Below, piece after piece: positions 20,025 to 29,695 of a stretch of DNA of 64,000 nucleotides. Origin of the DNA: Clostridia bacterium (GTDB taxonomy: Bacteria; Bacillota; Clostridia; Oscillospirales; Acutalibacteraceae); NCBI GenBank assembly GCA_017403065.1, contig JAFQOT010000012.1:62001-126000 (forward strand), given 5' to 3'. A program made the translations under genes and the position numbers. Each line of letters begins with the position of its first letter. The first letter of the stretch is position 1. The notes beneath the pieces were generated by a model. It was not told the origin of the DNA, searched no databases, and saw only the letters and a program-made list of their open reading frames with translations.

Positions 20025-20062
20025 AAACTGCCCGACATTCATAAAAGAAGTCGAGCAGTTTA
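20025..20062 (-). terminator. Terminator of the acs-vor-ilvE operon
   Basis: Minus strand AAACTGCTCGAC / GTCGGGCAGTTT (20061-20050, 20036-20025; one G-T or mismatch) followed by TTCTTTTAAAG. Confidence 0.75.
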
Positions 20063-20070
20063 ATTTTTAA

Positions 20071-21135
20071 TTATTTAATTTCATAGGTCCAACCGAAGCT
20101 ATCCTCTATATTGCCCCATTGAATACCAGTTAAAGTATCATAAAGCATTTGAGTAGTCTGTCCGATTTCACCCTTATTGATAGTATATTTTTTATCCTTA
20201 TAGCAAAGCTCGCCTATAGGTGAAATAACTGCCGCAGTACCGCAGCCCCACGCCTCTTTCAAGGTGCCGTTTTCTAAAGCTTCACCTAATTCATCAATGC
20301 TTAAAAGACGCTCGCTAACCTTGTAGCCCTTGGATTTAAGAACCTCTATACAAGATTTACGTGTAATACCTGGAAGAATAGAACCACTGAGCATAGGTGT
20401 TACGATTTCGTCGCCTATTTTGAACATAACGTTCATAGCGCCAACCTCTTCCACATACTTTCTTTCAACACCATCAAGCCAAAGCACCTGAGAATATCCC
20501 TTTAGCTCAGCGCGCTGACCTGCGCGGTTTGAAGCAGCATAGTTGCCGCCGCATTTCGCATAACCTGTACCACCGCGGACTGCGCGTACATCCTCGTCCT
20601 CTATCATAATCTTAACAGGGTTTATACCCTCTTTATAATAGCTTCCTACAGGAGAAGCAATTATAACATAAGTAGCATTATGAACTGCGTGCACACCTAA
20701 TGTTTCGTCGTTTCCGAACATATAAGGGCGTAAATAAAGGGATGTTCCCTCTGCAGCAGGGGTCCAGTCCTGCTCTAAGGCTACAAAGGTTTCAAGTATT
20801 TCAAGAGCCATATCCTCAGGTATCTGAGGAAGACATAGCCTTTCAGCAGAATTATTCATTCTGCGGATATTTTCCATTGGTCTGAAAAGCTGTACTTTTC
20901 CGTCTTTGCGGCGGTATGCCTTTAAGCCCTCGAAAATTTCAGAGCCGTAATGTAAAACAGTAGAAGCAGGATGAATAGACAGGTTGCCAAAGGGTACTAT
21001 ACGGGCATTATACCAACCCTTATCGCAGTTCCAGTCCATAACAAACATATGATCTGTGAATATTTTACCGAATCCTAAGGTAGAGCTGTCAGGCTTTTCC
21101 TTTAAAACGGCTGCTTTTGTAATTTTAATCTCCAT
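20071..21135 (-). CDS. ilvE: Branched-chain amino acid aminotransferase
   Basis: 354 aa, fold-type IV PLP enzyme of the ~350-residue IlvE type. Conserved GSEIFEGLKAYRRKDGKVQL at ~65-84, YLRPYMFGND, the PLP lysine region GTGYAKCGGNYAAS, and EEVGAMNVMF. It exchanges amino groups between Glu and the 2-oxo acids of Val, Ile and Leu. GAGGT precedes the ATG by 8 bases. As last gene of an operon under a Val-type T-box and directly after a 2-oxoacid:ferredoxin oxidoreductase, it most likely finishes valine/isoleucine synthesis by aminating the 2-oxo acid. Confidence 0.93.
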   Translation of the reverse strand: MEIKITKAAVLKEKPDSSTLGFGKIFTDHMFVMDWNCDKGWYNARIVPFGNLSIHPASTVLHYGSEIFEGLKAYRRKDGKVQLFRPMENIRRMNNSAERLCLPQIPEDMALEILETFVALEQDWTPAAEGTSLYLRPYMFGNDETLGVHAVHNATYVIIASPVGSYYKEGINPVKIMIEDEDVRAVRGGTGYAKCGGNYAASNRAGQRAELKGYSQVLWLDGVERKYVEEVGAMNVMFKIGDEIVTPMLSGSILPGITRKSCIEVLKSKGYKVSERLLSIDELGEALENGTLKEAWGCGTAAVISPIGELCYKDKKYTINKGEIGQTTQMLYDTLTGIQWGNIEDSFGWTYEIK

Positions 21136-21146
21136 ATCTTTTACCT

Positions 21147-21680
21147 CTAATTTTCTTTGCCGATATTAAGCGCTTTCAGGTTGAAATCAAGCATATCAGC
21201 GTGACGAGCAGAGATAACCTTGCTCAAAGCCTTATTAACACCGTTCATATTAAACTGGTTCATTTCTGCTAAAATCTTGCCTACGATAATCATATTTGCC
21301 AAGGTTGGCATACCGTTTTCGTTAGCAAGCCTTGTTGCAGGAATGTAATGAACAGTAACATCAGTACGGTTTACCTTTCTTTCGATGAGGGTAGAATCTA
21401 CAAAAATAGTACCGCCCTTAACCACAGAAGCCTCGTACTTATCTAAAGACGGCAAATTCATAGCCACTAAAACATCAGGCTTAGAAACTATTGGCGAGCC
21501 AACAGGTGTGTCGCTTATAATAACCGAGCAGCTTGCTGTACCGCCACGCATTTCGGGACCGTAAGAGGGCAACCAGCTTACCTGTTTGTCTTCAATAAGG
21601 CCCTTGTATGCTAAAAATTTACCTGAAAATAATATACCCTGACCACCAAAGCCGGCGAATAAAAATTGTGTTGTAGCCAT
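21147..21680 (-). CDS. vorC: 2-oxoacid:ferredoxin oxidoreductase, gamma subunit
   Basis: 177 aa. Pyruvate/ketoisovalerate oxidoreductase catalytic gamma domain: starts ATTQFLFAGFGGQGILFSGK (FGGQGI motif), with WLPSYGPEMRGGTASCSVII (substrate/CoA-binding region). Overlaps the beta subunit gene by one base. Part of a four-subunit enzyme interconverting acyl-CoA + CO2 + reduced ferredoxin with 2-oxo acid + CoA. The letter used for the subunit symbol varies between genomes. Confidence 0.88.
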   Translation of the reverse strand: MATTQFLFAGFGGQGILFSGKFLAYKGLIEDKQVSWLPSYGPEMRGGTASCSVIISDTPVGSPIVSKPDVLVAMNLPSLDKYEASVVKGGTIFVDSTLIERKVNRTDVTVHYIPATRLANENGMPTLANMIIVGKILAEMNQFNMNGVNKALSKVISARHADMLDFNLKALNIGKEN

Positions 21681-22432
21681 TATTTATTCTCCTCCTTTGC
21701 TGTTCTGTCCTTGTAAACGCCTAAAGGATAATAAGGAATCATTTTTTCATCTATCCACTCAAGCGCTTTTTTAGGAGTAAGTCCCCAGTTTGTAGGGCAG
21801 CTTGAGATAACCTCAACCAAAGAAAAGCCCTTGCCTTCTACTTGGTTTTGGAAAGCTTTTTTAATAGCTTTTTTAGCAGCCTTAACGTTCTTTACGTTGT
21901 TTACTGCTACACGCTCTAAATATTCAGGACCGTCAAGCTGTGACAGCATTTCGCAAACCTTAACAGGATAACCGCAAAGATTTACATCACGTCCGTAAGG
22001 TGAGGTTTGTGTAACCTGACCAGGCAGAGAGGTGGGTGCCATTTGTCCGCCTGTCATACCGTAAATTGCATTGTTAATAAAGATAATGGTTATATTTTCA
22101 TTTCTCGCTGCTGAATGTACTGTTTCAGCCATACCGATAGAAGCCAAATCACCATCACCCTGATATGTAAATACTATTGAGTCAGGTTGGGCGCGTTTAA
22201 CGCCTGTAGCTACTGCAGGAGCGCGGCCGTGGGCTGCCTCAATCATATCACAGTTAAAATAATCATAGCACATTACCGAGCAACCAACAGGAGCAACGCC
22301 TATTGTCTTACCCTCTATTCCCAACTCATCAATAACCTCTGCTACCAAGCGATGAACAATACCGTGGGTACAGCCTGGGCAGTAATGCATTGGCACATCA
22401 GTAAGTGCGTGAGGTTTATCAAAAACTACCAT
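21680..22432 (-). CDS. vorA: 2-oxoacid:ferredoxin oxidoreductase, beta subunit (TPP-binding)
   Basis: 250 aa. HYCPGCTHGIVHRL and APVGCSVMC carry the [4Fe-4S] ligands; YQGDGDLASIGMAE (GDG), then FINNAIYGMTGGQMAPTSLP is the thiamine diphosphate/Mg site. Beta subunit of the VOR/KOR class. It overlaps both flanking subunit genes by one base, indicating translational coupling. Substrate preference (2-ketoisovalerate-like) is inferred from the neighbouring ilvE and the T-box rather than from residues. Confidence 0.9.
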   Translation of the reverse strand: MVVFDKPHALTDVPMHYCPGCTHGIVHRLVAEVIDELGIEGKTIGVAPVGCSVMCYDYFNCDMIEAAHGRAPAVATGVKRAQPDSIVFTYQGDGDLASIGMAETVHSAARNENITIIFINNAIYGMTGGQMAPTSLPGQVTQTSPYGRDVNLCGYPVKVCEMLSQLDGPEYLERVAVNNVKNVKAAKKAIKKAFQNQVEGKGFSLVEVISSCPTNWGLTPKKALEWIDEKMIPYYPLGVYKDRTAKEENK

Positions 22433-29343: not shown

Positions 29344-29369
29344 TTTACATTCCTCCTTGAAAATATTCC

Positions 29370-29643
29370 ATAAAAATAAAAAACATTCGCCCCAAAGAAA
29401 GCTTTGAGACGAATGTGAAATAACACTCGCGGTACCACTCAAATTGCAAGTTACCTTGCCCCTCAGAGTCTAACAACTCTTATGCCTTTACGCAGCAATC
29501 ACGGGAAAGCTTACAAATAAGGTTCAGCCCTCCGGCTCAGAAGTGATAGGTATTTTAAGAAAAAACTTTATCGGCTCGCACCAACCGCCGACTCTCTTAA
29601 AAGGTAAATTCTTTACCGTCTTCGTCAAAGCCTTTGTAATTTT
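29370..29643 (-). promoter_or_regulatory. T-box riboswitch leader, specifier read as ATC (Ile)
   Basis: Minus strand T-box word GAGTGGTACCGCG (29440-29428), terminator ACATTCG...CGAATGT (29416-29383) followed by TTTTTT. Stem I has GACGAAGACGG, AGAGAG and GGTTGGTGCGAG; the codon one purine before CTTCTGAGC is ATC, complement of 29545-29547. About 70 bases around stems II/III (29438-29507) are almost identical to the Val leader (26826-26895), while stem I differs. Confidence 0.9.
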
Positions 29644-29649
29644 TCACAT

Positions 29650-29678
29650 ATTATATCACTTCAAAATTGCTTTGTCAA
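29650..29678 (-). promoter_or_regulatory. Sigma-A promoter of the Ile T-box unit
   Basis: TTGACA (29678-29673), 17 bp, TGA-extended TATAAT (29655-29650). Confidence 0.85.
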
Positions 29679-29695
29679 CATTTTTTTTATTTATT

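Follow-up and report, generated by a model that had tools for sequence, protein, structure and literature searches.

The 64,000-nucleotide stretch analysed here (hereafter the window; Clostridia bacterium, contig JAFQOT010000012.1) carries on its minus strand, between positions 20025 and 29680, a gene cluster that very probably replaces the standard isoleucine and valine pathway and would build both amino acids from imported branched short-chain fatty acids. A preliminary description of this DNA had read the cluster as a salvage pathway of this kind, and that reading is supported by the isoleucine and valine specifiers of its two T-box leaders, by the homology of its two ligases to enzymes acting on 2-methylbutyrate and isobutyrate, and by the finding of no IlvB, IlvC or IlvD. 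Ligases, an oxoacid:ferredoxin oxidoreductase and an aminotransferase occur here together in a genome without detectable ilvBCD.

In the mechanism proposed, uncharged tRNA-Ile or tRNA-Val would lead to read-through of the matching leader, and the ligases would convert 2-methylbutyrate and isobutyrate to the corresponding branched acyl-CoA. The oxidoreductase VorDBAC (hereafter VOR), working reductively, would then form the 2-oxo acid from acyl-CoA, CO2 and reduced ferredoxin, and IlvE would transaminate this product to the amino acid. The substrates of the ligases, the reductive direction of VOR and the induction by uncharged tRNA-Ile and tRNA-Val are what we infer from sequence.

The order of the genes is T-box, ligase, T-box, ligase, P-loop ATPase, vorD, vorB, vorA, vorC, ilvE and a terminator hairpin, and all features lie on the same strand as follows.

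29650..29678, minus strand: promoter-like site P1 (TTGACA, 17, TATAAT), 12/12 consensus bases
29402..29637, minus strand: T-box leader 1, specifier AUC (Ile), RF00230 107.6 bits
29383..29416, minus strand: attenuator terminator of leader 1, 15-pair stem and T run, fold z -7.49
27076..29343, minus strand: acs1 (ligase 1), HTH-cupin-acyl-CoA synthetase by its Pfam domains, predicted 2-methylbutyrate ligase; start ATG 29343 picked by eye from the ribosome-binding site
27039..27067, minus strand: promoter-like site P2 (TTGACA, 17, TAAACT), 10/12 consensus bases
26785..27029, minus strand: T-box leader 2, specifier GUA (Val), RF00230 96.7 bits
26766..26797, minus strand: attenuator terminator of leader 2, 14-pair stem and T-rich tail, z -6.25
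24423..26720, minus strand: acs2 (ligase 2), HTH-cupin-acyl-CoA synthetase by its Pfam domains, predicted isobutyrate ligase; start ATG 26720 picked by eye
23758..24420, minus strand: P-loop ATPase, CbiA/ParA-like, PF01656 28.1 bits
23529..23747, minus strand: vorD, ferredoxin-like subunit with Fer4 domains, PorD_KorD and OorD models below cut-off
22432..23496, minus strand: vorB, 2-oxoisovalerate:ferredoxin oxidoreductase alpha-type subunit, NF005507 546.7 bits (cut-off 399)
21680..22432, minus strand: vorA, thiamine-diphosphate subunit, PF02775, PorB_KorB below cut-off
21147..21680, minus strand: vorC, gamma subunit, PF01558, PorC_KorC below cut-off
20071..21135, minus strand: ilvE, branched-chain aminotransferase, TIGR01123 396.6 bits (cut-off 250), NF009897 also above cut-off
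20025..20061, minus strand: end-of-operon terminator hairpin, folding strongly (z -7.15) and followed by a U run, yet absent from the listing of the terminator scan

All parts named in the preliminary description (T-boxes, ligases, VorDBAC and IlvE) were thus recovered, and the gene for the P-loop ATPase between ligase 2 and vorD is an addition to them. The same description had placed a single terminator at the end of the cluster; there are instead three, namely an attenuator hairpin after each T-box and the hairpin downstream of ilvE.

Both leaders score above the RF00230 gathering score of 93 bits, align to model positions 1-219 and are the only Rfam matches above gathering score in the window. 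Specifiers assigned to amino acids unrelated to branched chains would have spoken against the salvage reading, and the codons placed by the Rfam alignment are those of isoleucine and valine. For comparison, relatives were taken as the best 80 of at least 587 matches to ligase 2, a set biased towards close relatives; the 80 loci come from named GTDB contigs, mainly of Clostridia metagenome-assembled genomes, many of whose titles name herbivore gut samples. T-boxes were located in these loci by profile search and the leaders were aligned, one alignment column giving the specifier; this column was preferred because a strict specifier pattern missed leaders with GAGT or CAGC in place of GAGC. The specifier is ATC in 51/51 readable leaders of ligase 1, a 52nd leader being incomplete, and a valine codon in 77/77 leaders of ligase 2 (GTA in 73, GTC in 4). 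When the frame of the specifier was shifted by -1, +1 or +2, no isoleucine, valine or leucine codon was obtained in the leaders of either ligase. The assignment procedure could also be judged on the three T-boxes of the same genome that lie outside the branched-chain set: their specifiers AAC, TTC and ACC precede asnS, pheS and thrS, each above its NCBIfam cut-off, and fit in 3/3 cases. Finally, a UGGU bulge is present in both leaders, and tRNA-Val(tac) and tRNA-Leu(gag) of this genome end in ACCA, which matches it. Binding of tRNA and read-through with uncharged tRNA are predicted for both leaders.

The two ligases share an HTH_19, a Cupin_2, an AMP-binding and an AMP-binding_C domain (Pfam). 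The best match of both ligase domains in the PDB is 3etc, over ca. 520 residues (E 3.7e-187 for ligase 1 and 1.4e-178 for ligase 2). A passage of PMC10455477 describes 3etc as MacsMa, an acyl-CoA synthetase of Methanosarcina acetivorans that prefers 2-methylbutyrate and in which Trp259 is critical for substrate binding; the offset to MacsMa numbering was derived from the YHTGD motif given there. In the alignments with 3etc, both the position of Trp259 and a Gly replacing the Trp of acetate-type enzymes are conserved in the two ligases. This Gly was placed where we take it to lie in MacsMa. Between 55 ligase-1 and 80 ligase-2 proteins, 22 alignment columns differ while being at least 90% conserved within each group, and 6 of these fall within the ligase domain. 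They include Gly458/Ala471 and Leu461/Met474 (ligase 1/ligase 2), located four and one residues before the Trp259 position, and a bulkier residue in the ligase for the smaller acid would fit the isoleucine and valine assignment. The best NCBIfam model for both proteins is MbcS (NF047394), with 441.2 and 435.3 bits; neither reaches its cut-off of 850 bits, so they are not filed as MbcS. According to a passage of PMC10026030, MbcS activates 2-methylbutyrate and isobutyrate, and isovalerate poorly. Ligase 1 is therefore likely, by homology and specifier, to act on 2-methylbutyrate and ligase 2 on isobutyrate.

The fusion of the ligases to an XRE-type helix-turn-helix (HTH) and a cupin looks as if a regulator and an enzyme formed one protein. 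In the one region examined in a Bacteroides relative, a 48%-identical ligase has a separate cupin gene and is located beside arginine and proline genes, not beside vor.

The genome to which the window belongs has 1,236,471 bases in 14 contigs and is 99.57% complete. No match to IlvC (PF01450), IlvD (PF00920) or IlvB (TIGR00118) was found in it, while each was detected in 14/14 control genomes; valine and isoleucine must then come from a route such as that proposed here or from uptake. The IlvE of the cluster is the only class-IV aminotransferase found (13/14 controls were positive). The comparison was extended to 297 genomes of the same order, in which a ligase-2 homologue was called at a threshold of at least 65% identity among the matches listed. 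On this basis IlvC occurs in 4/36 genomes with such a homologue versus 171/261 others (Fisher p 3.3e-10, with genomes treated as unrelated), and in 2 of the 25 genomes that have the adjacent pair of ligases. The exchange between ligase and IlvC is visible inside two genera. In g15, the ligase without IlvC is seen in G176 and G194, both together in G254, and IlvC with no ligase among the matches listed in G230, G248 and G276; in g17, G188 belongs to the first of these types, and G242 and G260 to the last.

The combination of T-box, ligase, vor and ilvE was also sought in the relatives. In 53/68 loci with room for it, ligase 1 precedes ligase 2 by at most 1.5 kb. Where 6 kb or more beyond ligase 2 were available (57 loci), the ATPase, vorDBAC and ilvE are found within 6.5 kb in 41. 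The place of ilvE in the gene order differs between loci, some of which have a distant homologue of it (ca. 45% identity). The P-loop ATPase is present in 47/47 relatives with vor genes downstream of ligase 2. As a guess, this protein may aid the supply of low-potential electrons or of iron-sulphur clusters. A valine T-box and ligase 2 with no vor downstream occur in L033, L034, L040, L044, L045, L052, L055, L064, L069 and L086; in L034 the genes around ligase 2 are unrelated-looking open reading frames (ORFs).

The cluster had been described as one pathway operon. This holds for vorDBAC and ilvE, which are located behind the valine leader, but ligase 1 forms a separate unit behind the isoleucine leader. 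Promoter-like sites were scored as matches to 12 consensus bases, and their number across the region is 31 versus 22.6 (sd 4.4) in shuffled sequences, so that single matches mean little. A site with at least 10/12 matches was found, however, just upstream of 50/51 ligase-1 leaders versus 1/153 random pieces, and of 74/77 ligase-2 leaders versus 4/231 random pieces. Since each leader has its promoter-like site and its attenuator, and since this recurs in relatives, there are probably two transcription starts, with the distal genes behind the second attenuator. As ligase 2 has a promoter-like site and an attenuator of its own, VOR and IlvE would be gated by valine and ligase 1 by isoleucine.

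This arrangement is the first of several points that weigh against a replacement pathway. When isoleucine alone runs short, ligase 1 but neither VOR nor IlvE should be induced, an awkward design unless the basal level of the latter two suffices. Valine and isoleucine may alternatively come from imported amino acids or peptides, and IlvC is kept in the four ligase-bearing genomes mentioned above. The failure of both ligases to reach the MbcS cut-off also counts here. In the relatives, 6/57 loci have vor but no ilvE downstream of ligase 2 and 10/57 have ligase 2 without downstream vor genes, and a T-box was not found before 4/81 ligase-2 and 4/56 ligase-1 genes. Lastly, the search for tRNAs did not recover tRNA-Ile(GAU) or several others, which indicates that the assembly has gaps.

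Two other roles of the cluster have to be weighed against these data. VOR enzymes are commonly described as degradative and the reactions can in principle run either way, so that IlvE, VOR and the ligases might ferment isoleucine and valine to branched acids for energy or reduced ferredoxin. AMP-forming ligases, however, spend ATP instead of yielding it; besides, no other pathway to valine or isoleucine was detected and IlvC is scarce in ligase-bearing genomes (among the matches listed). T-boxes for these amino acids would moreover turn on breakdown during starvation: according to PMC7778990, T-boxes raise expression in response to their uncharged cognate tRNA, and such control speaks against a degradative role, which we regard as very improbable. 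The ligases could also provide the synthesis of membrane fatty acids with branched acyl-CoA primers, with VOR and IlvE refilling these primers from amino acids, given that MbcS, the nearest NCBIfam model, serves fatty-acid synthesis in Staphylococcus aureus (PMC10026030). An amino-acid-specific T-box for each ligase and the linkage to vorDBAC and ilvE in 41/57 relatives fit amino acid synthesis better, and the lipid role is likewise very improbable as the main one, although a minor share of the acyl-CoA may go to lipids. Synthesis of isoleucine and valine from branched acids is therefore retained as the preferred reading.

A third unit, which is not in the window and was thus beyond the view of the preliminary description, was found on another contig of the same genome (C6; L007 6115-13324). 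It comprises a T-box with specifier CUC (Leu), a LeuA homologue and a third ligase, and runs on into an amidohydrolase gene and then into metY- and metA-like genes above NCBIfam cut-offs. The leaders of such units, that of the present genome included, have a leucine codon in 23/23 cases (20 CTC, 3 CTG), and a promoter-like site with at least 10/12 matches is located just upstream of 20/22 of them versus 0/66 random pieces. Of the 23 units, 17 are on the strand of ligase 2 and downstream of it, and in 11 of these 17 at most 200 bases separate the unit from the last vor or ilvE gene. Of the remaining units 4 lie upstream, 1 is on the opposite strand and that of the present genome is the one on another contig.

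The LeuA homologue scores 236.7 bits against the TIGR00973 cut-off of 598.7. When aligned with three LeuA proteins above this cut-off, it displays TLCKEEN, MCSNKN and a gap in place of TLRDGEQ, HxHND and the ESGIH segment, and TLRD, HxHND and ESGIH are all missing in the homologues of 19/19 relatives, while the LeuA_dimer domain is retained in the present genome. Ligase 3 is fused to a xylose-isomerase-like TIM barrel (AP_endonuc_2) and belongs to another subfamily: its best model is NF009233, below cut-off, its best PDB matches are fatty-acyl and feruloyl synthetases, and it is not MacsMa-like. A match to ligase 3 occurs in 34/36 genomes with a ligase-2 homologue (among the matches listed) versus 69/261 others.

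The leucine unit probably supplies isovaleryl-CoA to the common VOR and IlvE and constitutes the weaker arm of the system. There is a somewhat smaller chance that it is something else, for instance a leucine-sensing regulator with an unrelated ligase, as the different subfamily of ligase 3, the IlvC found in 29/103 genomes with a match and the continuation into amidohydrolase and metY/metA-like genes would suggest. Against this stand the uniform leucine specifiers, the frequent location downstream of the operon, the distribution of ligase 3 in ligase-2-bearing genomes, and the finding of no LeuC in the present genome, where the sole aconitase-fold ORF passes the aconitase cut-off NF005558. For a wider reading the chances seem to us evenly balanced. 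In it, isoleucine, valine and leucine T-boxes would each switch their own ligase (for 2-methylbutyrate, isobutyrate and isovalerate), all feeding one reversed VOR and one IlvE; in one group of gut Clostridia this complete salvage regulon would have taken the place of making branched-chain amino acids de novo, and a catalytically dead LeuA would have been kept as the leucine sensor. If this reading is true, the specifier codon predicts the ligase substrate from DNA alone.

Two possible markers were not adopted. The presence of IlvC in the 29 genomes just mentioned disqualified ligase 3 as a clean marker of the salvage route. LeuA was set aside as an indicator that leucine is made de novo, since the TIGR00973 model, at 1e-150, finds it in just 57/175 IlvC-bearing genomes, and the contrast of 0/36 (among the matches listed) versus 80/261 was considered weak and discarded as evidence.

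The present genome (G000) is, at 1.24 Mb, very small for its group and has six T-boxes above gathering score. Divergent from the thrS T-box, two adjacent glycine riboswitch aptamers (L003 1898-2065, plus strand) precede a gene for an amino acid carrier of the agcS type.

The pathway and the T-boxes are each known, and their combination appears to be the new element; searches of open-licence PubMed Central (PMC) papers turned up neither branched-acid ligases under T-box control nor such an operon. It would offer a sequence-readable genetic basis for the known branched volatile fatty acid need of some rumen microbes and would predict which uncultured gut bacteria live on these acids. The specifier codon would act as a built-in label of the ligase substrate, so that both direction and substrate can be tested directly for enzymes that normally pass as degradative. 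If the reading is true, cross-feeding in herbivore guts includes branched acids that protein fermenters produce and that serve as precursors of amino acids; a genome such as the present one, taken for a valine and isoleucine auxotroph because ilvBCD is missing, is then scored wrongly.

Early rumen work on the carboxylation of branched acids is reportedly that of Allison and Robinson. Reductive carboxylation in rumen anaerobes and methanogens leads, as predicted here, from the branched acid via acyl-CoA and the 2-oxo acid to the amino acid; here, in contrast, the genes form one operon, each ligase has an amino-acid-specific T-box and the genomes mostly lack IlvC. PMC10658910 cites the reductive route for rumen methanogens. 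For Prevotella bryantii, PMC7709123 regards the reverse step as still unproven.

The leaders have the same full-length architecture, specifier, UGGU bulge and attenuator as other T-box riboswitches (RF00230) of branched-chain genes, but are located upstream of fatty-acid-activating ligases. The usual targets of T-boxes are synthetases, ilv and leu genes, and transporters. The whole ligase domain is homologous to MacsMa and keeps the Trp259 position and the Gly, whereas the N-terminal HTH-cupin part and the occurrence as paired paralogues differing beside Trp259 set the present proteins apart. MbcS of S. aureus, the best model for both ligases at about half its cut-off, has a role in lipids, whereas a role in amino acid synthesis is proposed here. 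Finally, the oxidoreductase resembles known VOR enzymes in its four adjacent subunits, with VorB above cut-off and a predicted 2-oxoisovalerate activity, but is proposed to work reductively under starvation control and is found beside an extra P-loop ATPase.

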